Shown here in pieces: positions 1,014 to 59,152 of a stretch of 64,000 bases of DNA (within the stretch, counting starts at the first letter, position 1; each line of letters opens with the position of its first letter). Below the pieces are notes generated by a model. That model did no database searches. It was not told the origin of the DNA and saw nothing but the letters and a program-made list of their open reading frames with translations. Both the position numbers and the translations under genes were made by a program. The DNA comes from Mucilaginibacter arboris (GTDB taxonomy: Bacteria; Bacteroidota; Bacteroidia; Sphingobacteriales; Sphingobacteriaceae): positions 1-64,000 of the forward strand of contig NZ_WPIK01000016.1 of NCBI RefSeq assembly GCF_009754915.1. Reading direction: 5' to 3'.

Positions 1014-1061
1014 GATATATGTATATATACAGATATACAAATATACAGTTACGCTATAAAA
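1014..1061. repeat. Octamer-phased AT-rich array 1 (6 units)
   Basis: Six consecutive 8-bp units starting at 1014 fit loosely to NRTATAWN; the first two are GATATATG and TATATATA, and the last two are degenerate. The array lies between the relaxosome gene and the next array. It shares its strict 8-bp register with the arrays before parA and rep, which suggests a common binding protein. Confidence 0.55.
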
Positions 1062-1379
1062 AATAGTCGTTTTTTAATATTTTGCTATAATTTATAGATA
1101 AGCACCTGATATTTAAACTAATAAAATTATCAATTAATGCTTGTGTTTATGATTTAAAGGCCTTTTAGGAGTGTTTGCCGTTATGGATTTGCTTTTATAG
1201 AACGGATTTTCTTCCTTAAAAAGGAGGTTAAAAAAGTTTCTAAAAAGATTCGTTTTATTAACCTGTCCAAAGATGTGGTTTAAGAAAATCCGCTGAAATA
1301 CTTAATAAGTAGTATTATGGTTGCGGCCTAAAGAGTATTTTGGGTAGTACGTATAAAGGAGTAGTGGCTTTGATTTTGG

Positions 1380-1467
1380 CATATATACAGATATTCATAT
1401 AGTTATATATACGTATATCTGTATAAGCGTATAGAAGTATAGGTGTATATTTACATAGACGTATATC
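1380..1467. repeat. Octamer-phased AT-rich array 2 (11 units)
   Basis: Eleven uninterrupted 8-bp units from 1380 to 1467 keep perfect register, most with TATA at positions 3-6 of the unit (for example CGTATATC and TGTATAAG). It is the longest array in the window. Its right end runs into the last codons and stop codon (1451-1453) of the LuxR-type gene, so the repeat has been accommodated in coding sequence. Confidence 0.65.
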
Positions 1468-2428
1468 GCCTGAGTAAAACTTTGTCTGGTTCTTTATTAA
1501 GTTCTTTTATCAGCTCCGCTTTATTTTGTACTCCTGTTTTAAGAAAGATATTTTGCACATGTTTTGTAACTGTACTTTTTGCGATAAATAATTTTTGGGC
1601 AATGTCTTCATATCTTAATCCTTCGATGATAAGCAAAGCAACTTCTATTTCTCGTGGGCTTAATTTAAGGCGCTCAACGTTGTAGTCAAATCGGTTTGGG
1701 AATAGGGCTTCCATTTTCGGAAGCTGCTGTTCGGATTGCTTAATTAATGATTCCAGCCTCACGTTATCTTTTATAGATTCTTTGATCATTGTCCAGATGA
1801 ATAAGCCGGATATAATTAAGAAGCCGCCGTTCATGACCAGAACCTCTATTAGCTGGCTTAAGTTGAAAAATGAAATTATTGGCATACTTACCCAGGGTAC
1901 TACAGCGAAATAAGTTAAATACATTTCCGTACCCTGAGTGATATCTTCCTTGTACTTAATCCTTATTGAATTTAGTATGGCTGTAAGAGCAATGATGGCA
2001 TAAAAGAACGGTATAATTACTCCATGCTCGACGGCCAAGTGAATGTTTCCTTCAATTAGATATTCTGCAACAATGAAGAGTAGAAACGGGGTAAATAAAA
2101 ATAATAAAACGCCGTATGTCGCGTGGAACCTAAGCTTTGTTAAATCGAATGCTTTGTAAAAATAATATGGGAAGTAACAAGCCAGGACAAAGCCACTGCC
2201 GTAAGCAAGAATATTCTGTGTAACGATGGGGACTTTTAAACTTGGGTCTGGAAACAAACCTCCGCAGATATTATAAACGATGTAGAGCGTTAGTAGGATC
2301 ACATAATAGTATCTCTTTTTGTCGTATGGTTTTTGTAAGTAAAAAAGGATTTGGTATAAGAGCATTACTATTTCCAGGATGATAAAGACAAATGTCTCTA
2401 TGTCCATGTCTGTATTAAAGACTTTCAT
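1451..2428 (-). CDS. Membrane-anchored LuxR-family transcriptional regulator
   Basis: 325 residues. The first ~220 contain about six or seven hydrophobic segments. The C-terminus (about residues 255-315, with KLSPREIEVALLIIEGLRY and the recognition-helix region STVTKHVQNIF) is a clear LuxR/GerE helix-turn-helix. A membrane sensor joined directly to a LuxR output domain is a known Bacteroidota architecture; the signal is unknown. It lies 12 bp downstream of the acetyltransferase gene, so the two form an operon read leftward. The last codons lie inside an octamer array. Confidence 0.8.
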   Translation of the reverse strand: MKVFNTDMDIETFVFIILEIVMLLYQILFYLQKPYDKKRYYYVILLTLYIVYNICGGLFPDPSLKVPIVTQNILAYGSGFVLACYFPYYFYKAFDLTKLRFHATYGVLLFLFTPFLLFIVAEYLIEGNIHLAVEHGVIIPFFYAIIALTAILNSIRIKYKEDITQGTEMYLTYFAVVPWVSMPIISFFNLSQLIEVLVMNGGFLIISGLFIWTMIKESIKDNVRLESLIKQSEQQLPKMEALFPNRFDYNVERLKLSPREIEVALLIIEGLRYEDIAQKLFIAKSTVTKHVQNIFLKTGVQNKAELIKELNKEPDKVLLRRYTSM

Positions 2429-2440
2429 AAATTAGGAGAA

Positions 2441-3010
2441 TTAACCTCGTTTTAACATATACAGCTTATAGCCAAAGGATAGTTCCTTATAGGTGTAAAA
2501 GCCGAACTTTTTATACCAGGGTAGGTTTTTTAAGGTGGATGTTTCTAAGTAGATCGCACGGTTTTTAGCAATGCTTTCCTGAATAATTTCTGTTAGTAGT
2601 TTAGTGCCAATCCCTTTATTTTGTTCGTCTGGTGAAACGCCAAGGAACCATAGGTAGTAAAACGGCTTTTGCGGGTAGTTACTCTTAATGGCCTTTTCTC
2701 TGCTCATTGCTTTGCTGGCGTTACTTAGGCCAATTGATTTTAGCAGCAGCTTTATATCAAGAATGGCTGATTGTAATGTAAATTTCTTTAGATCCGGATA
2801 AAGGACCAGCGCACATCCTTTTTTGTCATTCGAAAGGAAAACTTCACCGAACGTTAAGCAGATGTCGAATGAATAATCCATTAAAAACGTAATTCTATCT
2901 TTTCTTTTTTTGTCCTGCTTTACTATATAATTAACACTTTGATTCTCATTAAAAGAATCTGTAAGGATTTTGATCACAAGAGCTTTGTCTTCTTTTGTAG
3001 CTTTTAACAT
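2441..3010 (-). CDS. GNAT-family N-acetyltransferase
   Basis: About 189 residues from the ATG at 3008-3010; a longer reading would need a GTG at 3055. The C-terminal half carries the acetyl-CoA loop (SPDEQNKGIGTKLLTEI) followed by the typical YKKFGFYTYKE ending of the fold. The N-terminal part is compatible with a small-molecule acceptor site. The acceptor cannot be named. It is first in a two-gene operon with the membrane LuxR regulator. Confidence 0.8.
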   Translation of the reverse strand: MLKATKEDKALVIKILTDSFNENQSVNYIVKQDKKRKDRITFLMDYSFDICLTFGEVFLSNDKKGCALVLYPDLKKFTLQSAILDIKLLLKSIGLSNASKAMSREKAIKSNYPQKPFYYLWFLGVSPDEQNKGIGTKLLTEIIQESIAKNRAIYLETSTLKNLPWYKKFGFYTYKELSFGYKLYMLKRG

Positions 3011-3191
3011 CGTAAAATTTTTATTTTTTAGTACTAGGCAATTACTTGGCAGCACATATGGGATGTACTTAGAGATGCTTTTTAAAATCCTATTGCCTTC
3101 TAAGGATTTAGCAGCGTTGTTATTCTTAAAGTAGTAGATGCCTGTTAGAACATTCTATTAAGATAATAACAAAAAAACTGCGTAAAAATTA

Positions 3192-3199
3192 TAGTTTTG
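3192..3199 (+). promoter_or_regulatory. Putative -7 promoter element for the XRE gene
   Basis: TAGTTTTG fits the Bacteroidota -7 consensus TAnnTTTG and lies about 45 bp before the ATG at 3245. No clear -33 TTTG is visible at the expected distance, so this is tentative. Confidence 0.35.
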
Positions 3200-3244
3200 C
3201 TATATTAATAACCTAAAAAAATTAGAAACTGATTTAATATATTC

Positions 3245-3658
3245 ATGGATCAAAGTGAAAATGAGCGCTTAAAGCTTATTAGAAAAACATTAGGTTATAA
3301 TCAGGAGGATTTCGCACCAACGATAGGTTTAACCCAAGGCGGGTACTCTGATATAGAGCGGGGTAAAAACGGTTTGTCAGGCAAAGTAAAACTATTGCTT
3401 GTTAATGTTCATAAAGTGAACCTGAGCTATTTGGAAAAAAATCAAGGTGGAATGTTTTACATAGATACACCTCCGGATGAACCGGAAGTGGAAACATTAA
3501 ACCTTGACCTGGGTGCTACACTAGACAAAAAAGACCGGACAATTGAGCTATTAAAAGCAGACATAAAACGGTTAAACGCCGAACGTCAACTTTATTTAGA
3601 TCTACTAGCAACAAAGGATAAAGCTATTGCTGCACTTGAACGGAGCTTAAAGAAGTAG
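3245..3658 (+). CDS. XRE-family helix-turn-helix regulator with coiled-coil tail
   Basis: 137 residues. Residues ~5-60 form a Cro/C1-type helix-turn-helix (RLKLIRKTLGYNQEDFAPTI, then SDIERGKNGLS). Residues ~92-137 are charged and heptad-like, consistent with a coiled coil for oligomerisation. It precedes parA by 70 bp, and that gap is filled by an octamer array. It could regulate partition or simply be adjacent; the separate array argues that parA has its own control. Its overall plan resembles the XRE genes at 14831 and 20079, though it is more diverged. Confidence 0.8.
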   Translation: MDQSENERLKLIRKTLGYNQEDFAPTIGLTQGGYSDIERGKNGLSGKVKLLLVNVHKVNLSYLEKNQGGMFYIDTPPDEPEVETLNLDLGATLDKKDRTIELLKADIKRLNAERQLYLDLLATKDKAIAALERSLKK

Positions 3659-3669
3659 ATTCCTTAGTT

Positions 3670-3725
3670 TATATGTTTATATATTTATATAAAAATATTT
3701 TTGTATAATTGTATAAATATATAGG
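3670..3725. repeat. Octamer array 3: candidate centromere (parS) and parA operator (7 units)
   Basis: Seven consecutive 8-bp units run from 3670 to 3725 (TATATGTT first, TATATAGG last), ending 3 bp before the parA start codon at 3729. Arrays of short phased repeats before parA are the usual form of centromere/operators bound by ribbon-helix-helix partition proteins (compare the heptads of the omega protein of pSM19035). The small protein encoded after parA is the natural ligand; that link is inferred. Confidence 0.65.
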
Positions 3726-3728
3726 GGC

Positions 3729-4472
3729 ATGAAGATTATTTCTATTTTAAACCACAAAGGCGGTACAGGAAAAACGACTTCGGCTCTGAATATAGGTGCA
3801 GGACTTGCACGACTTCAAAAAAAAACCCTACTTGTTGACCTTGACCCACAAACAAATTTAACAGAAGGTTTAGGCATACATAAAACTAAAGTATCGATTT
3901 ATAACAGTATAATGAATGGGAGCGATTTGCCCATACAGCATATATCTGAATATTTAGACCTTGTTCCTTCTTCAATCGATTTATTAGGTGCTGAGTTAGA
4001 ATTAGTATCTAGATCAAACCGGGAAACTGTTTTAAAAGACATACTGGATAAAGTCAAAGATCAATATGAATATATTATTATTGATTGTCCACCAGCTTTA
4101 GGTATGCTGACAATGAATGCCCTCGTTTGCACTGATACACTACTGATACCTTTAGAAGCAGAGTTTTACTCATATCGAGGTATTGATCGTATGGTATTCT
4201 TTATTACAGAAGTAAGAACGCACTTCAATGAACACCTTACAATTGGTGGCGTATTTATTACAAGATATAATTCTAGACGACTTTTAACTGACCAGATAAC
4301 TGGCAATGTTAAAAAGCACTTTAATGCGAAATTATTTGACACAAAGATCAGGGTAAATGTGTCATTGGCAGAAGCCCCGGCAAAAGGAAAAGACATTTTT
4401 GAATATGCACCTACTTCAAATGGTGCTATTGATTATGGGAATTTAGTAGATGAAATTTTAATTAAAATATAA
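3729..4472 (+). CDS. parA: ParA-family partition ATPase
   Basis: 247 residues without an N-terminal helix-turn-helix extension, so of the short ParA (type Ib / Soj) class. The deviant Walker A box is LNHKGGTGKTTSALN (residues 7-21), with the signature lysine (Lys10) and catalytic lysine (Lys15). The Walker A' region LLVDLDPQTNLT and the Walker B region IIIDCPPALG follow. It uses ATP-dependent DNA binding to segregate plasmid copies. It begins directly after an octamer array and is followed 4 bp later by the partner gene. Short ParA proteins rely on the partner, not themselves, for operator binding. Confidence 0.92.
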   Translation: MKIISILNHKGGTGKTTSALNIGAGLARLQKKTLLVDLDPQTNLTEGLGIHKTKVSIYNSIMNGSDLPIQHISEYLDLVPSSIDLLGAELELVSRSNRETVLKDILDKVKDQYEYIIIDCPPALGMLTMNALVCTDTLLIPLEAEFYSYRGIDRMVFFITEVRTHFNEHLTIGGVFITRYNSRRLLTDQITGNVKKHFNAKLFDTKIRVNVSLAEAPAKGKDIFEYAPTSNGAIDYGNLVDEILIKI

Positions 4473-4476
4473 GGTT

Positions 4477-4746
4477 ATGGCAAAGAGGTTTGAAATGGAA
4501 GACAATAGTAGTCATCTTGAAGGAGTTGGGGCGTTATTTAAAGGTTCCGTTAAGAAAGATGAACAGCAAAAAGAAAAGAAAGAGGAAGCTTTGGCGGATC
4601 TGGATGACGATAAGGAATTAGTAAATTATTTGTTTTCAATGGAGAGGGGATTACAAAAAAAACTTAAAAATATGAGTACTAATTCTAGGAAATCAATTAA
4701 AGAAATTATTCTAATTGCTATAAAAAGTCATTATAAAATTGAATAG
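4477..4746 (+). CDS. Putative ParA partner / centromere-binding protein (ribbon-helix-helix-like)
   Basis: 89 residues, starting 4 bp after parA. The N-terminal ~50 residues are acidic and lysine-rich and probably flexible. The C-terminal ~40 residues (MERGLQKKLKNMSTNSRKSI then KEIILIAIKSHY) match the strand-helix-helix pattern of ribbon-helix-helix plasmid proteins. Flexible tail plus RHH is the plan of ParG- and omega-type partners, whose tails stimulate the ATPase. It is the best candidate to bind the 8-bp arrays across the plasmid. No family name can be assigned with certainty. Confidence 0.6.
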   Translation: MAKRFEMEDNSSHLEGVGALFKGSVKKDEQQKEKKEEALADLDDDKELVNYLFSMERGLQKKLKNMSTNSRKSIKEIILIAIKSHYKIE

Positions 4747-4823
4747 TCCTTTAGCTTAAATTCACTGTGATCGTGGTAGTGATCTATAGGTAGATCTGGC
4801 GTATATACACTCTCTACAACCAC

Positions 4824-4843
4824 GGTCGAAATACTATAATGCT
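4824..4843 (+). repeat. Solitary replication iteron beside the partition locus
   Basis: The first 14 bases (GGTCGAAATACTAT) are identical to the iterons at 55.7-56.0 kb; the last six diverge. It lies between the partition partner and the serine recombinase, about 9 kb from the origin if the plasmid is circular. It could serve handcuffing or local regulation by the initiator. Confidence 0.6.
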
Positions 4844-4862
4844 TTTGTTTAATCTATTTTGC

Positions 4863-5507
4863 CTATTTGCTTTTGTCAGTTCCCTTGTTGTTAGCAGCAC
4901 CAGGTTTATAATTGATGTATTTGTAAACTGTTGCACTGCTGGCAATATCCAAAGTCTTTCTGATCTCCGAAATACTTATTCCGGAACCATAAAGCTTTTT
5001 AACGGCTTTCATCTTTCGCTCGCTTTCCTCCGTTAATCCCTTTGGCCTTCCGCCAACCCGGCCCCGTGCCCTGGCTGCCACAAGTCCTGCTCCGGATCTT
5101 TCCATCTGAACTGTCCTTTCGTTCTCCGCCATGATTGCATTCATGCTAAACCAAAGCTTTCCCATTGCTGTCGAAGTATCAATTCCTTCCGTAACCGATA
5201 CAAAGCGTATTTTTCGTTCGCTCAGTTCTGCCATGAGTTTGATCAATTCCCAGGCAGTCCTCCCCAAACGGTCGATCCGCCAGACAATAACGGTGTCCCC
5301 GTCCCGGAGCTGCTCATAAAGCGCATTCCATTCTTCACGGTATTTTACCCCGCTTTCTTTTTCAAAAAACAGTTTATCACAATGCTGCTTTTTCATCGCA
5401 TCTTCCTGCAGGTCGTAATTCTGAATTGTTTTTGATACCCGTATATAACCGAAAGTCATCCTATCTAAATTTCCTGTATTATTTCCTTTTGCAGTTTTGC
5501 TTTCCAA
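4863..5507 (-). CDS. Serine recombinase (resolvase/invertase family)
   Basis: About 199 residues of family core in a 214-residue frame. The catalytic serine lies in FGYIRVSKTIQN (Ser25). Further family motifs are WRIDRLGRTAWELIKLM and the long E helix region IMAENERTVQMERSGAG. The end is a resolvase helix-turn-helix (SGISISEIRKTLDIASS). The gene is next to parA, and its upstream region carries three copies of one recognition word, so a multimer-resolution role for the plasmid is likely. A transposon resolvase or an invertase are alternatives. Confidence 0.88.
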   Translation of the reverse strand: MESKTAKGNNTGNLDRMTFGYIRVSKTIQNYDLQEDAMKKQHCDKLFFEKESGVKYREEWNALYEQLRDGDTVIVWRIDRLGRTAWELIKLMAELSERKIRFVSVTEGIDTSTAMGKLWFSMNAIMAENERTVQMERSGAGLVAARARGRVGGRPKGLTEESERKMKAVKKLYGSGISISEIRKTLDIASSATVYKYINYKPGAANNKGTDKSK

Positions 5508-5515
5508 ATATAGCC

Positions 5516-5656
5516 AACCGTTACATTTAAACCTCCAAGAAATTTGATTAGGTGTAATAAGATAGGTGTAATAGTTTAATGTAACGGTTTAGGAAGTTAA
5601 GAAAGACTTTTTAATGGATGAACCCTGATTACAGAAATACGTTCGTTTAAATGTAA
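5516..5656. promoter_or_regulatory. Candidate res / recombinase-binding site and promoter region
   Basis: Three copies of GTTTAAATGTAAcgg lie just upstream of the serine recombinase: at 5516-5532 (inverted), 5574-5589 (direct, lacking one A) and 5645-5656 (direct, core only). The word TAGGTGTAATA is directly repeated at 5549-5559 and 5563-5573 between the first two. Several short inverted and direct sites beside a resolvase gene are the normal organisation of a res site with its own promoter. Which subsite holds the crossover point is not clear. Confidence 0.5.
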
Positions 5657-5873
5657 TAGCTAATTTAGCAGATACTAATAATTAGCCGAAATGATTAAGC
5701 AGATTCTCAAAAATGAATACTGCATTAGTAGATAGCTTTTATAGTCACTATACATTGGTAAACCGTACATAGAAAGCACGATCGTTTTCTAAATATAAGT
5801 TAAACAGGGTGTTAAAAGAAGGTAACTTTAAAGATTGAATTTCGTTATTTTGCCTGATATAGCCCCCAAATTA
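5657..5873. other. AT-rich spacer before the first histidine kinase
   Basis: No gene is seen. The right end carries a possible promoter for the kinase: a TTTTGC word at 5847-5852 close to the Bacteroidota -7 form, about 25 bp before the ATG at 5874. Nothing else stands out. Confidence 0.3.
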
Positions 5874-7067
5874 ATGGAAAAGAAAAAACGACGTTTAAGC
5901 AATCCTATTGAAACTATTAATTGTCTTACAGGAGAAAATGCCGCATTAAAAGAGGAAATACGCAACCTTGTTTCGTCTGCAAATTCAGCACGTTTTAACC
6001 CGACAGAAGAACCCGATTGCAAGGAAAGTGAAAACCGTTTTCAAACTATATTTGAGTCTTCCAGGTTTGGCAATAAAATCATAACGGCTGACCTTAAAAT
6101 TATACAAGTCAACCCGGCTTTAGTCGCGCTTTTAGGTTACAGTAATAAAGAAGATATCATCGGGACCAGGATATTAGATTATTCACCCGTTGATCAAAAG
6201 AAACACTGGCAAACACTTCAGGAAAAGTTGTGGAAAAAGGATAGTCCTTCTTTTAATTTAGAAACCGCTTTATTAAAAAAAGACGGTTCACTGGTTTGGT
6301 GCCATGTTACTTCAATTTTGTTTCAGGATAAGGGAGAAACTTTTGGCTATACAATTATAGAAGATATTACAGAACAGCGTGAACTGCGGGTGCAGAAGGA
6401 GGAATTTATTAATGTGGCAAGCCATGAGCTTAAAACCCCTCTAACCAGCTTAAAAGCAGGCTTACAATTACTAAACAGGAAGATTAAATCCGAAGCTGTA
6501 ATAACAGCTTCACATATCCAATTAGCCCAAAGTGCAGAAAATAATACCACAAGGTTAAGCAACTTAGTAGTTGATCTTTTGAATTCGACCAAAATTGAAC
6601 AAGGCCAATTAACTTTAAATAAAAGCAGGTTTAAGCTTTCAGATATATTAAATGAATGTTGTAACCATATTCTATTGGATAGAAAGTATTATTTAACAAC
6701 TAAGGGGGACCTTTCTCTTGAAGTAATTGCCGATCAGCAGAAAATAGAGCAGGTACTGGTGAATTTGGTTAACAACGCAGCTAAATATGCACCAGATTCT
6801 GAAGAAATAGTAATCCAGGTAGAAGGGTTGGAAGACCGGGTTAAAGTATCTGTAACAGACCGGGGAAATGGCATTTCGGCTGAAAATAAATCCCATCTTT
6901 TTGACCGTTATTATCGCGTAAACAATGATGGAAACCTGAATTCGGGGTTGGGGTTAGGCCTTTATATCTCCTCAGAAATTATAAGAAGGCACGGCGGGGA
7001 AATAGGCGTAGAAAGCAAACTTGGGCAAGGTTCTACATTTTGGTTTACCATTCCTGTTAAAAATTAA
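5874..7067 (+). CDS. PAS-domain sensor histidine kinase, soluble
   Basis: 397 residues from the ATG at 5874; an upstream TTG at 5835 would add 13 residues but lies ahead of the likely promoter element. Order: short coiled-coil start, one PAS domain (about 55-165), HisKA dimerisation helix with the phospho-accepting histidine in ASHELKTP (His184), then HATPase_c with N box NLVNNAAKYA, G1 DRGNGIS and G2 GLGLGLYI. No membrane segment, so it senses a cytoplasmic cue. There is no intact response regulator next to it, only the decayed receiver at 7464-7850. It is a close paralogue of the kinase at 8812. Confidence 0.88.
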   Translation: MEKKKRRLSNPIETINCLTGENAALKEEIRNLVSSANSARFNPTEEPDCKESENRFQTIFESSRFGNKIITADLKIIQVNPALVALLGYSNKEDIIGTRILDYSPVDQKKHWQTLQEKLWKKDSPSFNLETALLKKDGSLVWCHVTSILFQDKGETFGYTIIEDITEQRELRVQKEEFINVASHELKTPLTSLKAGLQLLNRKIKSEAVITASHIQLAQSAENNTTRLSNLVVDLLNSTKIEQGQLTLNKSRFKLSDILNECCNHILLDRKYYLTTKGDLSLEVIADQQKIEQVLVNLVNNAAKYAPDSEEIVIQVEGLEDRVKVSVTDRGNGISAENKSHLFDRYYRVNNDGNLNSGLGLGLYISSEIIRRHGGEIGVESKLGQGSTFWFTIPVKN

Positions 7068-7127
7068 ACGACGATGCTAAACGCTACTTTTAGCAACAAA
7101 GCTTAAACTGTGTTGCAAGACCTATAG

Positions 7128-7271
7128 TGGCTTAAAAAGCAAGAGGTTCTGCTATCCCGGAAAATCGGAAAGGAAGGTGAAAGGTTGGTGATTGAAGTTA
7201 AGGAAGATCCCTCACTTGTCATTAAGGTTTATAATGATGCCTTGGAAAAGGATAAAGCGGATAAGTTATAA
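7128..7271 (+). pseudogene. Start-less reading frame remnant
   Basis: A 47-residue frame directly follows a stop and contains no ATG; it reads like protein (RKIGKEGERLVIEVKEDPS) and ends at 7269-7271. It may be the tail of a lost gene. No family was recognised. The surrounding 7068-7463 shows no other gene. Confidence 0.25.
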
Positions 7272-7463
7272 CCTGTTCTAAGATAAGTCCCACTTTATAA
7301 GAAGTTTCAAGGACTTACGGCACTGAAGCCAGGGGGGAAGAAGCGGATGCCAGTCAGCCAAACCCGTGGCTGCACGTTTAGGTTACATTTATACAATTTT
7401 GGAAGACAGACGCCAGGTATATTTACTGGGGTTGGGCTAATTGAACTTTTACAAATAAAATAA

Positions 7464-7850: not shown

Positions 7851-7992
7851 AAGGGTCACTTTGTACTACCTATAGTCTGATTGATCCGATACCTACTCCT
7901 AGCAGCAATGAGCGAGTAAGAGATAAAGTTTTTTAGACTGTTCAACACAAATAGTGTATATTTAATCCGTTTTTATCGCTCACGATCGTTTT

Positions 7993-8793: not shown

Positions 8794-8811
8794 TTTATAA
8801 TAGATCAGCCT

Positions 8812-10940: not shown

Positions 10941-11073
10941 GCTTTATTTGAAAATTGTAACCTTGTAAAATCAATTGTAAAAAGGCGAAAAGGTTTGAAT
11001 TTAAACCGTTTGAATAGGTTTAGGCGTTTATAACAGCTGATAAAGAACGGTTTTTCAGGCACGCGCCCTGAAT

Positions 11074-13062: not shown

Positions 13063-13080
13063 AAACTCATACACCTAATA

Positions 13081-16370: not shown

Positions 16371-16879
16371 GTTTTAAAGATTAAATGTTCCTTGTTTCTT
16401 TCGTTATGTAAATATACAAATTTGTATATTAATATACAAGTATGATTATCATTTATTTTGATATTTTTCATTTTATTTTTTAAAAAAAATTTGTCGGAAA
16501 AGGGGCATTCCCACCTAAGCAACTTCTTCATCGGGCGCAGCAGATAAGCAACGAATGAGCGGAGGGATGAAATAATGGATCAGTTAACGGGCTATATTAC
16601 CTGTAGGCATTCTTTGATAAACAATGTTACTTCCAGGAAAAAGCAAGGGTTCAAACGTGCCAGGTTTAGCGGTAATTTATATCTTTTTTTTTGCTGTAAC
16701 TATAGTTTAACTACAATCTTTTTTTAGCAAAGCAACTCCTAAGCAAGCAGAGCCGTCAAGGGAATATGAAATAAATAGGGACGGGGGAAACGATGGGGAA
16801 TTTTTTTGTGAAAGCTTTTTACTGATGTAACAAAGCGGGGGAACATTGCTTTTAAAAAAGAATGCGATATGATCACATC
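16371..16879. other. Non-coding stretch upstream of the ssb operon
   Basis: Apart from the palindrome at 16411-16430, nothing recognisable is seen in these ~500 bases; no frame resembles a protein. Confidence 0.4.
16411..16430. promoter_or_regulatory. Perfect 20-bp palindrome, operator of the ssb operon
   Basis: AATATACAAATTTGTATATT is fully self-complementary and is followed by another half copy (AATATACAAG, 16431-16440). The same AATATACA / TGTATATT arms recur at 17226-17245 before the XRE-like gene, which suggests one repressor acts at both. Confidence 0.6.
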
Positions 16880-22058: not shown

Positions 22059-22097
22059 AAAAACCCCGAAGGGTTTTTAAAGGGCTAAATAAGCCCT
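22059..22097. terminator. Double hairpin terminator of radC
   Basis: AAAAACCC-CGAA-GGGTTTTT at 22059-22078 is directly followed by AAGGGCT-AAAT-AAGCCCTT, the second overlapping the radC stop codon at 22085. On the minus strand the outer stem ends in a T run. Confidence 0.7.
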
Positions 22098-22555
22098 TCA
22101 TCAGCAAACGACAGGTATGCTTCTTCCGTTAAGATTAGGTGGTCCAGTATTGCAATATCGAGTAGCAGCCCACCTTTTTTTAATTTCTCGGTCAGCTTTA
22201 AATCTGCATCACTTGGTTTTAAGTTTCCGGAAGGATGGTTGTGGGCTAGGATAATGGAACTGGCATTTGCTTTCAGTGCTGCCTGAAAAACCACTTTCGG
22301 ATCGCATACGGTGCCTGCAAACCCGCCTACAGACACTAAGAAAATCCCGATAACTTTATTTCCCCTGTTTAGGAGCATGATCCGCATTTCCTCGCGGTGT
22401 TCGATGCTGCCTTCGTTCCAGTTATCGCGCATGATTTCGTAGGCATCCCGGCTGCTGGCAATTTTAGGTCTTTGTGAAGGTTTTACAATACTGGAATAAC
22501 TGATGCTAATTTCTGCTACCTGCAATAAGGGTGTTGTTTGAATTGTGCTTTTCAT
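22085..22555 (-). CDS. RadC-like JAB-domain protein
   Basis: 156 residues with the MPN/JAB metal motif HNHPSGNLKPSDAD near residues 100-113 and the conserved upstream block EEMRIMLLNRGNKVIGIF. It lacks the N-terminal helix-hairpin-helix of chromosomal RadC and so belongs to the short plasmid/ICE class. The catalytic role is unclear; these proteins are widespread on mobile elements and are thought to help in single-strand DNA processing or anti-restriction. Confidence 0.88.
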   Translation of the reverse strand: MKSTIQTTPLLQVAEISISYSSIVKPSQRPKIASSRDAYEIMRDNWNEGSIEHREEMRIMLLNRGNKVIGIFLVSVGGFAGTVCDPKVVFQAALKANASSIILAHNHPSGNLKPSDADLKLTEKLKKGGLLLDIAILDHLILTEEAYLSFADEGLI

Positions 22556-23384
22556 GTTTTTAAGCTGTTTTTGAGGAAATGATTGATGAAAGCACTCATC
22601 ACGCTATCCTCGGGCAATAAGGTCAAGGTGGAGGCACGGAAAAAATGCGGAGGCTCCCGTAACCAGAGTGGAGGGATACCCATTTTTTTCGGGTACTACC
22701 TTGCAGGGCGAACGCCACAGGAGGGTAAAGGCCACCGTTTGCCGGAGGATAGCGACCTTTGCTTGCCATCTGTCATGGCCTGCTCTCTCTGCTTTGTTTC
22801 TTTTTTTTGCAGGTTTTATTTCAAACAGTTTTCCCGAAATGGAAAACAAAAGATCAAAACGCGGAGATGGATCAGGGAAAACGATTAAAGTATTTTGGCC
22901 TATCGTTTCGCATTTTTATTTATGTATTTGCATGAATGATTTTACACCATCTATATATTTATATATTAATATATTTATATAAGATGATAGGCACTTGGTG
23001 TACGTTTATATCCACCTAAACATTGATGGCCTATACCGGCGTATCCCTAACTGGTTTGAGATAGACCTCTCAGGCGATAAGTAGGTATTGGGTAAGTCTC
23101 ATAAACTTTAATTGTGGTTTAATAAGTTTGTATCACAAATACAAAGACAAAATCCTTTCTGAACCTAATTTTTGGACTACGTTTTTTAGAGGTATGATAT
23201 CGTGAGGTTGAAAAACAGGTAAGCTCAAAAAGTTATGACTTAATGGACTATGCCTGTCACTCTTTGGGGCAACCCAGATTATTTTAATTTGATATTATAT
23301 GTATTAAAAGAAATGGCCAAGTCTAATTAAATGACTTTGCTTTAGTTTTTAATTAGGAGGCACCAATTATTATGAATTCCGTTA
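22556..23384. other. Long non-coding stretch with an octamer array
   Basis: About 830 bases without a supported gene; frames at 22583-22982 overlap on both strands and look spurious. It contains array 4 (22952-22983) and a small inverted repeat TTTGTAT/ATACAAA at 23127-23145. Confidence 0.4.
22952..22983. repeat. Octamer-phased AT-rich array 4 (4 units)
   Basis: Four consecutive 8-bp units (TATATATT twice, then two variants) in strict register at 22952-22983. It is the only array inside the large accessory block. Confidence 0.55.
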
Positions 23385-26566: not shown

Positions 26567-26891
26567 TGTAACCGTTTGATGTAATCACTTTTTAAGGAAA
26601 CATATTGATAAAAACACTATAGACAAAAATTGGCAATAACTTAATAGAAAAAATAACTACTTTCCTTTGATTTATTAATTATTTTCAATATTGTCCTATG
26701 CTCTTTTTGTTTAATTTAACTTATCCCGCATTTAATATTTTTAACATTAAATATATATTTTAGTGCAAAGTATATGTAGTCATACGTCCCGGAGTTTCAA
26801 TCAACTGTCAATTTATTTCTAATAGTTTTTTCTTCGAAATCATCTAAATTTAAAAGAAATATTAATGATTTTGCAACCAGTTAGATTTTCA
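26567..26891. other. AT-rich spacer after the reverse transcriptase
   Basis: No gene seen. Just after the stop the words ATGTAACCGTTTGATGTAAT resemble half-sites of the recombinase-binding repeats at 5.5 kb, but only weakly. Confidence 0.3.
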
Positions 26892-26975
26892 AACAAAGTC
26901 TACTAATTTGTCATTGCTGTCTTTTGTTGGATCACAAACAAAGTCCAATAGTTTGCGTTTGCTGTCTTTTGTTGG
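26892..26975. repeat. Two 39-bp direct repeats: operator of the AbiE-like operon
   Basis: Copies at 26892-26930 and 26937-26975 (45-bp period) share AACAAAGTC at the left and TTGCTGTCTTTTGTTGG at the right with a variable middle. Each copy is itself a partial dyad (AACAAAG against CTTTTGTT). AbiEi-type antitoxins repress by cooperative binding to paired repeats before their gene, so this matches the expected operator. The second copy overlaps the promoter. Confidence 0.7.
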
Positions 26976-26989
26976 AAAGTGTACTTTTG
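26958..26989 (+). promoter_or_regulatory. Promoter of the AbiE-like operon
   Basis: TTTG at 26958-26961 and TACTTTTG at 26982-26989 are separated by 20 bp, an ideal -33/-7 pair of the Bacteroidota type. The -33 element lies within the second 39-bp repeat. Confidence 0.65.
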
Positions 26990-47910: not shown

Positions 47911-47924
47911 TTGGTCGTAAGGGG

Positions 47925-51122: not shown

Positions 51123-51141
51123 GGCTTACCCCCCTCTCCTA

Positions 51142-52647: not shown

Positions 52648-52648
52648 C

Positions 52649-53380: not shown

Positions 53381-53393
53381 AGCCTTATAATTA

Positions 53394-53406
53394 CTAATAA
53401 TATTAG
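53394..53406. promoter_or_regulatory. Palindrome before the imuA-imuB-dnaE2 operon
   Basis: CTAATAATATTAG, arms of 6 bp around one base, 14 bp before the imuA start codon; a partial second copy (ATACTAAC) follows. It is a plausible SOS or repressor operator; no repressor for it is known from the window. Confidence 0.4.
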
Positions 53407-53729
53407 CAATTATACTAACTATTTTATCAAAAGGTTTGAAATGTGGAAAAAAAGTATTTGGGGTAAGGGAGCGTAATTCAGCGACGGGAGGGTAAAACGA
53501 TCAGTATGAGCAGGAGAAAAAGATGAGTAATGGGCTGTTAGAAGAGATGCTTACTTGCTTTTCCTCCAACTTCTTTTTACATACTTTTGCGGCAACCACC
53601 TTTACATTAAACTCAAGCCGGTATTGATTTCAATAAGATGACTAAACACCTTACTATAAATTACGGCCGAATACAATCAATGTTAAACTGGGTCGGTTAA
53701 GTTATACTGCTCTTTATTGTTGTAGGAAT
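53407..53729. other. Non-coding spacer between imuA and the primase gene
   Basis: About 320 bases with no convincing gene; a 22-codon frame near 53523 is too short to support. Confidence 0.35.
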
Positions 53730-53758
53730 CTGTCAAAAAAAATGTACTTTTTTGACAG
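53730..53758 (-). terminator. Hairpin after the Toprim primase gene
   Basis: CTGTCAAAAAA pairs with TTTTTTGACAG around TGTAC-type loop sequence, 16 bp after the stop codon of the gene at 53775. It probably ends that transcript. Confidence 0.6.
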
Positions 53759-53774
53759 GGATTTTAAATCAAGA

Positions 53775-54716
53775 TCATATTTTTCTCTTATCGCCGCTGC
53801 CTTGCTGGAAAAGTAAAAAGTCGTTCACATCGTTAAGCCCTTTTTCTGCGTAGAAAGCACTTTTATCTTCTGCTCCTTTTATTAGTTGAAGGCCTCTTTT
53901 CGTGGCATGTTTCCCTCCTACTCCTTCACGTCCACAATCGAAATATAAATGAACTGGAAGATTTTCAGAAATAGATTTTACATCTATCTTTTTGCAAAGT
54001 TTTTCTGTTAGGTTACCAGTACCATTTAAAATTACAACGTAAAAACTTTCTTCTGGTTTAATATGCCTATAGCTTGCAAAGTCCATAGATCCCTCAAATA
54101 GCTTTATGCTTTCTGGCTTACCTCCAATTGTGTAGGCGCAAATCCCTCCTGCCTTTAAATTACCTTTATACACCTTTGACCTTACTGCATAACCACCGTT
54201 TAGATTATTAAAGCCTATTGCAAAAAAAACGTCTTTGCCATTTGACCAATGTACTTCTTTAGCGGTGTCTATTATATCAGCAATATCTAATCCTCGGCTT
54301 TTTAAATAAGTAATAAGTGCTGGATGTTGAACCTTATTTTTTACCTCAATGATTTCGATTTCAAGATTTGTTTCACCGTTCTTCTTTAGGAAAGATTTGT
54401 AAGCATCAATTACAATATCCGAGTTAATACTTAATCTTTGGACTGCTTCAACAAAAGATTTGTTCTCGAATTTTTGAACAGCTTTTATAATATCACCTCC
54501 ATCACCTATGGCATGATCATACCATAAATTTGTTGTCTCTCTTATGCTAATGGAGCCGGTCTTTTGGTTATCAAAACCAAAGAAATGTTCTTTACCTTTC
54601 TTCCCTTCATACCGCAAGGCCCCTTTACTTTCAAGCTGAAAAAAATAATCCAAAATCGGAATTTCTTCTTTTATCCTGCTTGCCTCAGCTATCAGTTTTG
54701 AATAGTTGTTTCCCAT
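53775..54716 (-). CDS. Toprim-domain DNA primase (plasmid type)
   Basis: 313 residues from the ATG at 54716. The N-terminal ~95 residues resemble the DnaG CHC2-like fold (PILDYFFQLESKGALRYEGK, FFGFDNQKTGSISIRETTN, HAIGDGGDIIKAVQKFENK), though no zinc-binding Cys/His set is visible. The Toprim part is seen as IKLFEGSMDFASYRH with catalytic Glu, then YVVILNGTGNL and VHLYFDCGREGVGGKHAT with the acidic residue. Such primases initiate plasmid lagging strands or complementary strands after transfer. Confidence 0.75.
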   Translation of the reverse strand: MGNNYSKLIAEASRIKEEIPILDYFFQLESKGALRYEGKKGKEHFFGFDNQKTGSISIRETTNLWYDHAIGDGGDIIKAVQKFENKSFVEAVQRLSINSDIVIDAYKSFLKKNGETNLEIEIIEVKNKVQHPALITYLKSRGLDIADIIDTAKEVHWSNGKDVFFAIGFNNLNGGYAVRSKVYKGNLKAGGICAYTIGGKPESIKLFEGSMDFASYRHIKPEESFYVVILNGTGNLTEKLCKKIDVKSISENLPVHLYFDCGREGVGGKHATKRGLQLIKGAEDKSAFYAEKGLNDVNDFLLFQQGSGDKRKI

Positions 54717-54892
54717 TGTCAAGAGTACATTCAAATGCTATCGATAATAAAAAGTGTAACGTGTTTTGTATAAAGGCAAAAAGAAAATAAACCAGAATAA
54801 ACCTCTAATTCCAGACATCAGGTTTTAACGAGCTTATTAATGTAATAACTATAAACCTACCGTGCTCAAAAACATATTAAACAACTCTTATT

Positions 54893-54932
54893 TATACAAA
54901 TATATAAATATATGTTTATATAAACATATAAA
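54893..54932. repeat. Octamer-phased AT-rich array 5 (5 units)
   Basis: Five consecutive 8-bp units (TATACAAA first, CATATAAA last) in strict register. It lies between the lipoprotein gene and the upstream side of the primase gene, 180 bp before its start. Confidence 0.65.
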
Positions 54933-54937
54933 TTTAG

Positions 54938-55168
54938 TTATTTTATTGATTTTTTCTTTTTCAAAATATTGTTCATAATATCCATGTCAGTTTGATCTTC
55001 GTTTTTATTTTTATGAATTGGTTTTTTATGGAATTTCGGAGTATCTGTTTTCTTGATGGAATCAGCAATGGTTAATGAATTTGGCTTTTTAATTATTCCT
55101 GTGGATGTACCATTGCAGGAGCACAAAAAACACAGCACTATTAAAGCGCCAATTGTAAATTCTTTCAT
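54938..55168 (-). CDS. Small lipoprotein
   Basis: 76 residues from the ATG at 55168. A lipoprotein signal MKEFTIGALIVLCFLCSC ends at the lipobox cysteine (Cys18). The mature part is short, Lys-rich and probably disordered (KKTDTPKFHKKPIHKNKNE). Small lipoproteins of this kind on plasmids can act in entry exclusion or lysis release, but no evidence points to one role here. It lies between two octamer arrays. Confidence 0.6.
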   Translation of the reverse strand: MKEFTIGALIVLCFLCSCNGTSTGIIKKPNSLTIADSIKKTDTPKFHKKPIHKNKNEDQTDMDIMNNILKKKKSIK

Positions 55169-55251
55169 GTAGCAAATTTTTGATTGTTTAAATGGATACC
55201 TGTTCATAACGAGGAATGATTAGTTTGATAAAAAACCTATAATAAGCAATA

Positions 55252-55299
55252 TATATAATTATATAATTATATATTTATATTTTCATATAATTGTATAAT
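55252..55299. repeat. Octamer-phased AT-rich array 6 (6 units)
   Basis: Six consecutive 8-bp units (TATATAAT twice at the start, TGTATAAT at the end), about 84 bp upstream of the lipoprotein start. Consensus and register equal those before parA and rep. Confidence 0.65.
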
Positions 55300-55375
55300 A
55301 GTTGAAATAACGCAATAGATTATTAATAGGTGTCGTTTAGTACTAAATTTATAATCACTACTAAAGAAGTAAAAT

Positions 55376-55540
55376 ATGACAGGCTTTGGAAAATTCTTAT
55401 TAGCTGTAACGGTAAGTTTCTTCTTAATGATCGGTGCATTAGGATCCAAACATCCGACGTTTTTAATTGCTCTCGCAATTGGGATATGGATTTTGTTTGT
55501 TTCAATAATTTCTCCTGGGCTTTCAAAAAAGAAACGGTAA
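55376..55540 (+). CDS. Short two-helix membrane protein (54 residues)
   Basis: An ATG at 55376 opens a frame of 54 codons ending TAA at 55540. It reads MTGFGKFLLAVTVSFFLMIG for the first helix and PTFLIALAIGIWILFVSIIS for the second, with a basic tail LSKKKR. Two clear membrane helices with a positive C-terminus suggest a real small membrane protein. It is oriented toward the iteron origin and lies between array 6 and the iterons. Function unknown. Confidence 0.55.
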   Translation: MTGFGKFLLAVTVSFFLMIGALGSKHPTFLIALAIGIWILFVSIISPGLSKKKR

Positions 55541-55724
55541 AAACATCAGTTTTAATCCTTAATAACTGAGTGTAATAAAATATTTTAACCAGGGAACTAC
55601 CGGTATATAAATACCCATGTATCAGATAAGACTAAAACTTTAGTTATTTTTTTCTTTTTGCTGTTTGTTGAATTTTCATAGAAGCTTGCTATATATAGAT
55701 TATGTTATTAATATATAGTAATAT
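55541..55724. other. AT-rich stretch flanking the origin
   Basis: Strongly AT-rich sequence just outside the iteron cluster, consistent with a DNA-unwinding element; no gene seen. Confidence 0.45.
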
Positions 55725-55993
55725 GGTCGAAATACTATTAGGGTCCTCAAAAAAAAGAACCTTTTTAGCTGTAAAAAAGGCTCTTTCATATTAGTTGCAG
55801 TCGGAATACTATTAAGGTTGCAAGATCGGTCGAAATAATATTAAGGTAGGTCGAAAAGTTATAATGGTTTTTGGGCTGCGGTCGAAATATTATTAAGGTA
55901 AGTCGAAAAGAAATTAGGCTTTTTACTTCGCGGTCGGCATACCATTAAGGTGGGTCGAAATACTATTATCGTCAGTCGAAATACTATTAGGGT
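55725..55993 (+). repeat. Iteron cluster: replication origin (oriV)
   Basis: At least seven near-identical 20-bp iterons with consensus GGTCGAAATACTATTAAGGT, starting at 55725, 55799, 55828, 55880, 55932, 55953 and 55974, plus two degenerate copies at 55849 and 55901. Spacings are 21 bp (two helical turns) or 31 bp within the right part. The initiator gene ends inside the cluster and carries the last three copies in its coding sequence. This is the layout of an iteron-controlled plasmid origin. Confidence 0.9.
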
Positions 55994-57191
55994 GTATGCC
56001 AATAAAGCCCTCATGAATCATTCTCAATGCTTCACTATCTTTTAACTGGTTTTTTTTGTCCCATCCATTGGCTTTAAAATAGATATTTTTAATGATTTCT
56101 ACTTTCTTTTCTACATCGGCCTTACTGTTGTTAAGCCATCTTTGGAAGCTATCTTTCTCATTCTCCAAGTCGGTAATTTTACTTAACCGTTCAATAGGAT
56201 AGGTGAAATCAAAGAAGTTTCGTAGCTCCCTTAAAAGAAGAATTTTTAAGTTATGGTTAGTTTTCAGCTGCTTTACAATTGAAGGATGCAGGTTTGTTTT
56301 AAAATCAAATTCAACAAAGTAATCTTCCAGATATTTATTGTCAGAATGACCGCTAACAAATTTGTAATCAAATGAGAAGTGAACTTTACTTTTATCAGCA
56401 TTAATGTTTTTATGGATGGATTTAAGAATATTACTTACAGCCTCTTTTTTATGTTTAGGTTCTTTTTCAATAGGCATCCCCTTTTTATCAGGCTCTTTCA
56501 TAAACCTAACGCCGGCTAGATCTGCTAAAAAATCTACAGAATACAATGGGATTTCTTCTTTGCCACCCTGGGAAGAAAACACATGGAAAATTTTATTGAG
56601 CCAAACATAAACCTTCTTCCTGCTATGGCCACCTTTCCCTTTAGCTATCTGCGGTAGTTTAGCGGTGTCAAGGTTGTAGTATCGGCCCACAAAGCCATCA
56701 ATAATAACATCTGAAAGCCTTACTTCATATACTTTTTTTGTCCCAAGAATATTACCACTCTGCAGATAGATGTCTTTTAAAATTGGAAAGTTTTCGAGTT
56801 TAAGAATATTACCATCATCCCTGTAACTAATAACCTTTGAAAAAATAATATTTTCTTTAAGCATCCTGAATAATGTATAATCCAAAACACTTTCAAATTT
56901 ATGTCCTTCGTAAACTGGAGCTTTAGCTAAGCCATTTGCTATATCCGGATGCATACAACAAAGGTTAGCCGGATTCATTCCTGTGAAGTCGCAATACTCC
57001 TTAATCGTGAATTTAGTGTATCCGAACAGGTTACTATTAAGCTTTTTACTAATGAAAAGTATGAAATCTAAAACGTTTTGAGCATCACCTCCAAAGCTTT
57101 TGTCAATATCCATTAGGTTATCAGCAATACTTCTGTCAACTCTGGATAGATTGTAACTAAGGTCTTCTTTATGAACTGTGGTATTATTCAT
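55923..57191 (-). CDS. Plasmid replication initiator protein (Rep, iteron-binding)
   Basis: 422 residues. The central part (about 180-220, GHSRKKVYVWLNKIFHVF; then about 300-330) is consistent with tandem winged helices of iteron-type initiators; the N-terminal half (DFILFISKKLNSNLFGYTKF, TIKEYCDFTGMNPANLC) is also initiator-like. Context is strong: an iteron cluster overlaps its 3' end and an octamer array and a lone iteron lie upstream. The last residues NSISTDDNSISTHLNGMPTAK are iteron DNA read as protein. Upstream iterons imply autoregulation. Confidence 0.85.
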   Translation of the reverse strand: MNNTTVHKEDLSYNLSRVDRSIADNLMDIDKSFGGDAQNVLDFILFISKKLNSNLFGYTKFTIKEYCDFTGMNPANLCCMHPDIANGLAKAPVYEGHKFESVLDYTLFRMLKENIIFSKVISYRDDGNILKLENFPILKDIYLQSGNILGTKKVYEVRLSDVIIDGFVGRYYNLDTAKLPQIAKGKGGHSRKKVYVWLNKIFHVFSSQGGKEEIPLYSVDFLADLAGVRFMKEPDKKGMPIEKEPKHKKEAVSNILKSIHKNINADKSKVHFSFDYKFVSGHSDNKYLEDYFVEFDFKTNLHPSIVKQLKTNHNLKILLLRELRNFFDFTYPIERLSKITDLENEKDSFQRWLNNSKADVEKKVEIIKNIYFKANGWDKKNQLKDSEALRMIHEGFIGIHPNSISTDDNSISTHLNGMPTAK

Positions 57192-57201
57192 ATACTTGTT
57201 T

Positions 57202-57241
57202 TATATAAACATATAATTATATAAAGATATAATTATATGTT
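57202..57241. repeat. Octamer-phased AT-rich array 7, upstream of rep (5 units)
   Basis: Five consecutive 8-bp units (TATATAAA, CATATAAT and variants) run from 57202 to 57241, starting 11 bp before the rep start codon at 57191. Position in the promoter region mirrors the parA array. Confidence 0.7.
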
Positions 57242-57351
57242 AAGAAAAGTAAATCTAAAAACTAAAACTAAAAATTAAATGTACGTTTTTTCTTTTTGCT
57301 GATCTGGAATGATAAAAATGGGTTCAAACGCTTATAGATTAAGCCTAATAA

Positions 57352-57371
57352 ACCTTAATAGTATTTCGACC
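57352..57371 (-). repeat. Iteron in inverse orientation upstream of rep
   Basis: A perfect copy of the 20-bp iteron on the minus strand, 160 bp before the rep start. Initiators often repress their own gene through such a copy. Confidence 0.8.
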
Positions 57372-57459
57372 GGGAAGTGTATTTTCTTAAAAGGAGGGCG
57401 AATGGTGTACGTCTCGTCCTGGTTTTAAAACAGCAAAAAGAAAAAAGGAGTGAACCTTA

Positions 57460-58944
57460 TTAACGGCTTTTTTGAAAGTTTTCGTTGGCTTGATCTCCTG
57501 CCTTTTTTTCTGCTGGCTTTTCAATTATGGGTTTTAAATCCTTGTCAAAAAGGCTTAAATTTTTGTATTGGGGATTGGCAGCTACAAATACTTTTTCTTC
57601 GGCACCGTTCCTCTCAATCGTTACGGATTGAAGGTTTCCTCTTCGTAAAGAAGATAGTAACCTGTCTTTTTTCTCCGGATCAGTTAGTTCCTTTATAGGT
57701 TGGAGGCTTAACGATTTTTCCAGGTCAAAGCCGTAGGTTTGAAAATAAGTCTTGAGTGGGAAGTTTCCTTGTTCATTTCTCTTTTCAAAATCCAGTTTAA
57801 CCCAAACATCTTCTTTTCGTGTTGTAGGTTCTAAGTCAACCTCTTTACCGGCTGCATCAAATTTCATAACAGGAACACCATTATCTACTATTGTAACGTT
57901 TTGCGTGTTCTTATCTTTCATTAAATCTTTAACGATTGCAGGAACGGCTTTTAGATCATCAATTTCATAAGCAGCTCCGTTCGTAGGAACACGGCTTCCA
58001 TCTTCTGTTTTCCTGGATAAATAATGAATCGCTTGTAGGTTATTATCGGTGGTGGTTATCGGTAATTCGTTGCCGGTTTTATCAAAGTTCCGTGAAACTG
58101 AATGGTCTTTTGCCTTGACTGTGTAAGTCGTTTGATTGTCCAGCTTAACCTGTTCCTGTATTTTAGCTTTAGCTTCTGAGATTTTGAAAACTTTTGCTAT
58201 TTCATTAGTACCGGAAAAGACTGATAACTTATTAGGAATGTCTGCTTTCTTTTGTATTGACCTTCCTGAAAGTAAATTGTATGCTTCTTTAGCCGTGATA
58301 TCATTTCCTTTATTCAACTCGAATACCTGACTGATCGGCTTGTAGGCCTTGCCGGTCGTCGATCCTTTTTCAAGTACAGCCTGGTAATTGTTTAGAAAAT
58401 AATTATCAGTGGTAGAGCTTTTGCTAAAACGTAATTCGTAGTTTACAATATCCTTTGTTGCGACTGTATCAAATACAGCAGAGGCACCAAGCGTAAATTT
58501 GTCTTTGCCTTCTTTTAGTCTAGCCTCTAAGGCAGAACTGAGATTTTCACCAAAACCAAGGTATTTTAACGTTCTTTTAAGGTATTCAAAATTTTCTTGG
58601 TTTGGGATAGTTTTCTTCATATCAAATTTAACATCGTCAAATTTAATAAATCTCTTTTCCTTATCTGTTTCCTTGCTTAGAAAATGCCGGTTAATAAAGC
58701 CATTTTCATCAACAAAATAGGATACTTCTGCATTAGGGGTAAAAGAGTTTAACAGGAGATTCGCTTTATCCTGCTTATTTAGGTTTAGATTATCAATCAC
58801 ACTGGGTATTGACTGTTCTTGTAAATCGCTTAATTGAAAGTGATTTGAAGCCAGTTTTCCCTTTTGTTCTAAAGATGCTTTAAACATCGCTTTTTGTTCG
58901 GGAGTCCCTTGAATAACGTGAACCGGATTAGAAATTATTTCCAT
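57460..58944 (-). CDS. Transfer-region protein of unknown function (DUF3945-like pieces)
   Basis: 494 residues without signal peptide or membrane segment. The stretch NFEYLKRTLKYLGFGENLSS followed by a beta-rich part (VNYELRFSKSSTTDNYFLNN) resembles repeated blocks seen in Bacteroidota conjugative-element proteins. Two further repeated-looking segments occur (WVKLDFEKRNEQGNFPLKTY). No enzymatic motif was seen. It lies between the initiator and the ArdC-like cluster, on the transfer-region strand. A possible role in DNA processing is only inferred. Confidence 0.5.
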   Translation of the reverse strand: MEIISNPVHVIQGTPEQKAMFKASLEQKGKLASNHFQLSDLQEQSIPSVIDNLNLNKQDKANLLLNSFTPNAEVSYFVDENGFINRHFLSKETDKEKRFIKFDDVKFDMKKTIPNQENFEYLKRTLKYLGFGENLSSALEARLKEGKDKFTLGASAVFDTVATKDIVNYELRFSKSSTTDNYFLNNYQAVLEKGSTTGKAYKPISQVFELNKGNDITAKEAYNLLSGRSIQKKADIPNKLSVFSGTNEIAKVFKISEAKAKIQEQVKLDNQTTYTVKAKDHSVSRNFDKTGNELPITTTDNNLQAIHYLSRKTEDGSRVPTNGAAYEIDDLKAVPAIVKDLMKDKNTQNVTIVDNGVPVMKFDAAGKEVDLEPTTRKEDVWVKLDFEKRNEQGNFPLKTYFQTYGFDLEKSLSLQPIKELTDPEKKDRLLSSLRRGNLQSVTIERNGAEEKVFVAANPQYKNLSLFDKDLKPIIEKPAEKKAGDQANENFQKSR

Positions 58945-59112
58945 TTTTTTAAATGTTTTATGTTTGAGAACCCTTTAAAATGTGCATCAGGGATAGGAGT
59001 GGTTATCCTTTTTGCGACGTGGTGATGTTGTGGGAAAAAGATATGAACGGATAGCCCGTAAAGGCCAACGAGCATAGGGATGCCCAAAGAACGGCTTGGA
59101 AAGAAATGCTTT

Positions 59113-59152
59113 TATATATGAAAATATATTTATATGATTATATAGATATATA
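59113..59152. repeat. Octamer-phased AT-rich array 8 (5 units)
   Basis: Five 8-bp units read on the minus strand (TATATATC, TATATAAT and variants). It overlaps the last codons of the 59138-59848 gene and lies about 170 bp before the start of the 57460-58944 gene. Confidence 0.65.

Follow-up and report, generated by a model that had tools for sequence, protein, structure and literature searches.

Arrays bound by the partners of ParA proteins and transfer-linked ParA pairs are both already known kinds of system. The met boxes of MetJ, a metabolic repressor that works without a ParA, have an 8-bp pitch and a palindromic box, and are bound cooperatively by ribbon-helix-helix (RHH) dimers. On plasmid pSM19035, the type Ib ParAB system delta/omega has the RHH protein omega and arrays of 7-bp non-palindromic WATCACW heptads (PMC9499535). 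In the ParF-ParG system of TP228, the RHH partner acts as repressor by binding an array upstream of the par genes, and there is a centromere (PMC7308502, PMC5016525). Next to oriT, plasmid R388 carries 9-bp stbDRs, five to a set with 2 bp between repeats; its StbA/StbB system, a repeat-binding protein and a ParA-like ATPase, balances stability and transfer, and stbDRs are also found at other plasmid promoters (PMC3098194). In Agrobacterium, the ParA-like and RHH pair VirC1/VirC2 stimulates DNA transfer (PMC8406263). Here we analyse a plasmid of Mucilaginibacter arboris (Bacteroidota, Sphingobacteriaceae; genome 4.16 Mb), represented by the 78,466-bp contig NZ_WPIK01000016.1 (C8); the window is its bases 1-64000. 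The plasmid carries AT-rich arrays of contiguous octamers that fall into two classes, A and B. We consider it quite probable that two ParA-RHH pairs are encoded on the plasmid, each with its own head-to-tail 8-bp palindromic box code: RHH1, the 89-residue partner of ParA, would read class A, and RHH2, encoded with a second ParA-like ATPase (TraA), would read class B.

As on pSM19035, there is a ParA with a small RHH partner, and at least four contiguous short repeats overlap the partition and copy-control promoters. Three features of type Ib partition are present: a Walker-type ParA, a small predicted RHH partner encoded directly downstream and a tandem array at the par promoter. Unlike pSM19035, the boxes here are 8-bp palindromes (WKATATMW), no 7-bp runs were found, and a second, separate array class lies at the transfer region. 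An earlier note on this DNA had likened the arrays to the omega heptads; the analogy held for function, whereas in pitch and box symmetry the MetJ-like tandem 8-bp palindrome is closer. With MetJ the plasmid has tandem 8-bp palindromic boxes in common, and the box of one related plasmid (G080, TGACGTCA) is close to the met box; unlike MetJ, RHH1 is paired with a ParA. The TP228 boxes are degenerate tetramers separated by AT-rich spacers, unlike the strict octamers here, and we know of no plasmid-wide set of TP228 arrays at other promoters. As in R388 Stb, a ParA-like ATPase and a predicted DNA-binding partner are encoded with transfer genes. The arrays adjoin mobC and an oriT-like block; unlike stbDRs, they keep a strict 8-bp pitch, over as many as about 50 units. 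TraA/RHH2 resembles VirC1/VirC2 as a ParA-like protein paired with a predicted RHH protein, a likeness of gene pairing. To our knowledge, overdrive is not a long strict 8-bp array. Among the open-licence papers returned by full-text searches, no title or abstract described such arrays, which is weak evidence of novelty.

The 8-bp register

The register was tested independently of the choice of arrays, by counting runs of at least three exact TATA units at one fixed spacing (5-16 bp). Ten such runs at 8-bp spacing were found in the window, compared with none at 5, 6, 7, 9, 11, 13, 14 or 15 bp, one at 10 bp and one at 12 bp; six were counted at 16 bp, which is twice 8. Markov controls of order 1, 3 and 5 yielded 0 to 0.02 runs per window, which bears out the claim of the earlier note that the 8-bp phasing is not random AT richness. 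TATA-N4-TATA-N4-TATA occurs 20 times in the whole genome, 18 of them on the plasmid contig, all inside the window. The TATA-run test, the Markov controls and the genome-wide count together show that the 8-bp register is real and, within the source genome, nearly confined to the plasmid. A reversed-sequence control carries no information for array fitting, because a near-palindromic tandem retains its register on reversal.

All eight arrays of contiguous octamers listed in the earlier note were recovered at the coordinates given there. In one of them, given as 1014-1061, the octamers occupy 1007-1046, and the final bases are part of another palindromic site, which recurs before a helix-turn-helix (HTH) gene. 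The consensus NRTATAWN was drawn from a pool of two classes. In a scan of the plasmid with the class A matrix, seven arrays, among them that of class B at 1379, scored at least 33 bits against a shuffled maximum of 18.4. At a threshold of 14 bits the counts include some false positives (0-5 per shuffled plasmid), and 20 bits were used in later counts. A weak array at 16404-16435 is doubtful.

Two box classes on related plasmids

The common backbone is found on Mucilaginibacter plasmids NZ_CP155082, NZ_CP155080 and NZ_CP051683, the Pedobacter plasmid NZ_MN657144, contig 13 of genome G394 and contig 14 of genome G080. Except for the pair CP155082/CP155080, the plasmids compared have almost no 21-mers in common. 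Each sister plasmid showed local self-match at lag 8 that was mostly missing at odd or neighbouring lags, and de novo fitting at a lax threshold gave 12 to 18 candidate arrays on each plasmid. Strand-symmetric octamer matrices were fitted, class A being trained outside the mob region and class B between luxR and mobC. The resulting boxes were WKATATMW for class A and RNATATNY for class B. Their palindromy is built into the symmetric fit; an unsymmetric fit gave nearly the same palindrome for class A, as expected for one two-fold RHH dimer per box.

When one plasmid at a time was left out, the class was assigned correctly for 76 of 80 arrays. The four misassigned arrays were one upstream of the HTH gene on the Pedobacter plasmid, one clearly B-like array on CP051683 and two weak ones. 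Class A drifts by lineage: the G is gone from the box of the source plasmid (WTATATAW), whose counterpart on G080 reads WKA[TC][AG]TMW, with a CG centre in about half of the boxes. The class B box stays unchanged where class A drifts. The two classes, like the register itself, their positions, conservation and divergence, are directly visible in the sequences.

Both classes have the 8-bp pitch and the TA-centred core and stand on one plasmid, as they would if RHH1 alone read all arrays, those of the transfer region included. We regard this as improbable: the classes separate in the leave-one-out test, class B does not follow the changes in class A, and class B arrays recur in integrated chromosomal elements whose genomes have no detectable RHH1 homologue. 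For the same reasons, conservation where class A diverges and presence in genomes without detectable RHH1, the comparison does not support placing the transfer-region arrays in the same regulon, as the earlier note had proposed. Its single regulon is supported for the partition and replication promoters and not for the transfer region, where the arrays form the second class and are not promoter-proximal.

Position of the arrays

Both classes lie between genes, with 5% coding sequence compared with 84% for random placement. The array given as 1380-1467 overlaps the 3' end of a luxR-type gene, and that at 59113-59152 an open reading frame end; in relatives the latter site is the promoter of a topoisomerase-domain gene, which is absent here. 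For 50 of 62 class A arrays, a start codon followed within 150 bp (median distance 22 bp; 19% for random placement), compared with only 1 of 18 class B arrays (median 635 bp). TAnnTTTG is the -7 element of Bacteroidota promoters; it was found in 16 of the 31 upstream regions that contain a class A array, compared with 35 of the 220 that lack one. Upstream of both parA and rep, each of the seven plasmids has a class A array, even though two of the Reps are not BLAST homologues of the source-plasmid Rep. The junction of the topoisomerase-domain gene also carries one in 7/7 plasmids, even where the gene is missing, as on the source plasmid.

The arrays are both AT-rich and tandem. That they are a neutral satellite produced by slippage is nevertheless extremely improbable, as the units are degenerate outside the core while the register is kept over up to 50 units, and the arrays avoid coding sequence and occupy orthologous junctions on plasmids with almost no common 21-mers. 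Registers of 7 or 9 bp, looked for in such plasmids and elements, were absent.

RHH1 and the class A arrays

An alignment of 21 homologues of RHH1 showed a conserved C-terminal strand-helix-helix (YPLR[ML]...). Pfam RHH_10 matched 16 of 22 homologues (best E value 2.8e-4), in agreement with the earlier description of this 89-residue ParA partner as RHH-like; Omega_Repress matched two of the 22 weakly, and the MetJ family was not among the Pfam results for them. In the structure model the two C-terminal helices have a predicted local distance difference test (pLDDT) score of about 90. Sequence searches of solved structures returned nothing informative.

Class A arrays were found before parA in 23 of 23 parA-RHH1 loci, every locus scoring above 200 shuffles each. 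Eighteen of these loci, from 18 genomes and mostly on large chromosomal contigs, have no HTH gene and retain the class A octamers before parA. RHH1 is likely the class A reader because class A persists before parA-partner pairs without the HTH gene, and the comparison supports the proposal that the 89-residue partner is the ligand of the arrays at parA and rep, with class A at both promoters in every plasmid. On the source plasmid, RHH1 has Ser at strand position 54, where nearly all others have Arg54. Reading of the class A G by Arg54 would be consistent with the joint occurrence of Ser54 and G loss there, which is a single event. The parA-RHH1 pairs without plasmid context (L013-L027, L029-L031) come mostly from one genus and look like orphan or domesticated partition modules.

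The HTH gene of the XRE type adjoins the parA array in all seven plasmids, which would suit its product as the reader of class A. A palindromic TATAG-N5-CTATA-like site (TATAGTTTTGCTATA and variants), however, lies before the HTH gene at 3190-3204 and in the mob region at 1042-1058, and variants are conserved in most sister plasmids. This site is the probable operator of the HTH protein and would link it to the mob region. Given this separate operator and the 18 loci that keep their arrays without an HTH gene, the HTH protein was rejected as general class A reader; such a role is very improbable.

RHH2 and the class B arrays

RHH2 has the pattern KMLIRIDD-helix-helix, and no family was named for it by Pfam or NCBIfam. 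TraA matched NCBIfam ParA_partition at 3.6e-16, below the family cut-off. The profiles of RHH1 and RHH2 align in register, not significantly. The RHH2 strand KMLIR[IF] is invariant in the seven plasmids, whereas the MobC strand varies. RHH2 relatives were found in 103 of 401 genomes of the family, mostly in integrated elements, with a ParA adjacent wherever checked. The plasmid-trained class B matrix found arrays beside mobC in these elements, e.g. one of 27 octamers at 82 bits compared with a shuffled maximum of about 12.

Forty-seven chromosomal elements were grouped by RHH2 strand into 33 LIR-type and 14 VHVR-type, a grouping corrected by hand that affects the MLIRL loci L080 and L100. A class B array stood upstream of mobC in 32 of the 33 LIR-type loci, with scores of 27 to 211 bits and as many as 48 octamers; with the same matrix, only one of 14 VHVR-type loci passed 25 bits. 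VHVR elements carry another box, NGWTMNNN, in arrays of 11 to 50 octamers that lie in the mobC-relaxase gap, which measures about 300-480 bp and up to 1 kb in two. Seventeen loci were taken as VHVR-type for this count; the strand was read in 15, those of L114 and L115 not being read directly. The loci scored with the VHVR matrix had also served to refine it, a circularity that a matrix-free lag test avoids: identity in the gap at lags 8 and 16 was 0.355 and 0.358, compared with 0.225-0.263 at the other lags (4-17). RHH2 strand type and box type are thus strongly associated across these loci, and RHH2 is likely the class B reader. With class B likely read by RHH2, and another box going with another strand, the claim of one regulon does not hold at the transfer region.

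Several points weigh against this assignment and against the reading of the plasmid as a whole. The association is probably confounded with a division of the elements into what look like two clades, the loci are not independent, and one LIR locus (L082) shows no array. The RHH2 fold is predicted, and a structural search gave no informative match; the RHH1 fold is predicted as well, with weak structural matches that include the RHH proteins CopG, AvtR and MatP. Promoter proximity of class A does not by itself prove a centromere. MobC, a relaxosome accessory protein of RHH type encoded adjacent to the arrays, could itself read class B, in which case the arrays would be part of oriT and not linked to a ParA. 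MobC was dropped as the favoured reader and retained as a rival: its strand varies among plasmids and among LIR elements that have the same class B box, whereas the RHH2 strand type tracks the box. We consider reading by MobC unlikely.

The RHH2-TraA pair is rare outside the family: eight of 396 genomes of the phylum matched, five of them family members. An 8-bp array near mobC occurs in at least one other family (L165; L138 at 44 bits), and most mobC loci outside the family showed no clear array. The array of L165 (2343-2470; CTTTTACC CTTTTATA GTTTTACG) stands upstream of mobC. The portions examined of those Dyadobacter and Pontibacter plasmids that have a distant rep contained no 8-bp arrays. 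Plasmid pls1 of Pontibacter kalidii (L047, 5208-6400) carries repeats of 7-bp and 14-bp pitch, AACACAT upstream of mobC and ATTAATAAGTAAGA throughout the mobC-relaxase gap; these may be the heptad equivalent of the octamer arrays. In more distant Bacteroidota, GC-rich repeats of about 11-bp pitch were seen in mobC-containing loci (L169 near 4972, L173 near 4879).

Features of the window

The features are collected in Table 1. The candidate oriT block contains the inverted repeats TACAGGCAG...CTGCCTGTA and GGTAATTACATACC, plus CAAAACTGGCTGCC, and its exact core is present in 6 of 7 plasmids. The rep product had no Pfam match. At the 3' end of rep (55827-55994), 52-bp and 21-bp direct repeats (GGTCGAAATAATATTAAGG...) are iteron-like and mark a possible oriV. 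A tandem repeat scan also found a 45-bp tandem duplication with 85% match at 26890-26976.

Table 1. Arrays, sites and genes in the window, with two genes just beyond its end (contig coordinates)
Feature	Position	Strand	Remarks
Class A array, 7 octamers (dyad frame)	3669-3724	+	in the HTH-parA interval; ends 4 bp short of parA ATG
Class A array, 4 octamers	22951-22982	.	intergenic; ~395 bp before radC-like gene 22085-22555
Class A array, 5 octamers	54892-54931	-	~160-177 bp upstream of toprim/CHC2 gene 53775-54734
Class A array, 6 octamers	55251-55298	-	~43 bp upstream of small lipoprotein-like gene 54938-55207
Class A array, 5 octamers	57201-57240	-	precedes rep by ~10 bp
Class A array, 5 octamers	59114-59153	-	junction preceding topoisomerase C-terminal-repeat gene in six other plasmids; gene absent here
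Class B array, 5 octamers	1007-1046	.	luxR-mobC intergenic region
Class B array, 11 octamers	1381-1468	.	overlaps luxR-type gene 3' end; 70.9 bits, shuffled maximum 16.0
TAnnTTTG -7-like element TATTTTTG	3696-3703	+	within parA array
Site like HTH operator, TATACAGTTACGCTATA	1042-1058	.	abuts class B array
oriT-like conserved block, candidate oriT/nic	772-876	+	between luxR and mobC, near class B arrays; putative function
mobC, NikA/MobC-like, RHH type	71-466	-	
luxR/GerE-type regulator gene	1451-2428	-	Pfam scan
XRE-type HTH gene	3245-3658	+	own separate candidate operator at 3190-3204
parA, Walker-type ATPase, KGGTGKT motif	3729-4472	+	Pfam AAA_31 3.9e-56
RHH1, 89-residue RHH partner of ParA, proposed class A reader	4477-4746	+	directly downstream of parA
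rep, probable replication initiator gene	55923-57191	-	homologous to same-place genes in sister plasmids
RHH2, 115 residues, predicted RHH	C8 76042-76389		encoded directly after TraA, just outside window
TraA, second ParA-like ATPase	C8 76405-77022		tra operon, just outside window

Proposed mechanism and significance

From the comparison we infer which protein reads which class, together with repression, a centromere function and a role in transfer. RHH1 dimers would bind the class A arrays, one per octamer, at the parA and rep promoters and at those of several other backbone genes, and would repress these promoters; with RHH1 and ParA, the arrays may double as partition sites, as with omega on pSM19035. 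RHH2 would coat the class B arrays around oriT and, with TraA, couple the element to transfer or positioning machinery in the manner of Stb or VirC1/VirC2. Position, conservation and the loss of alternatives make the RHH1 half the most likely reading of class A, and comparative association does the same for the RHH2 half. For a more far-reaching proposal the balance is even: that conjugative elements of this Bacteroidota family have a centromere dedicated to conjugation, in which a ParA-RHH pair of the tra operon coats, beside oriT, a strict 8-bp array that can reach about 50 boxes. Box and RHH beta strand would co-evolve (RNATATNY upstream of mobC for the LIR strand, NGWTMNNN in the mobC-relaxase gap for the VHVR strand), and the box would be orthogonal to the partition/replication octamer code on the same plasmid.

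If true, Bacteroidota plasmids and integrated elements would gain a partition site, a replication and partition regulon and a candidate transfer-positioning site. They would also supply, as a natural data set, joint changes of RHH strand residues and an 8-bp box, and both the recognition code of RHH proteins and the connection of partition with conjugation would become testable with small proteins and short DNA.

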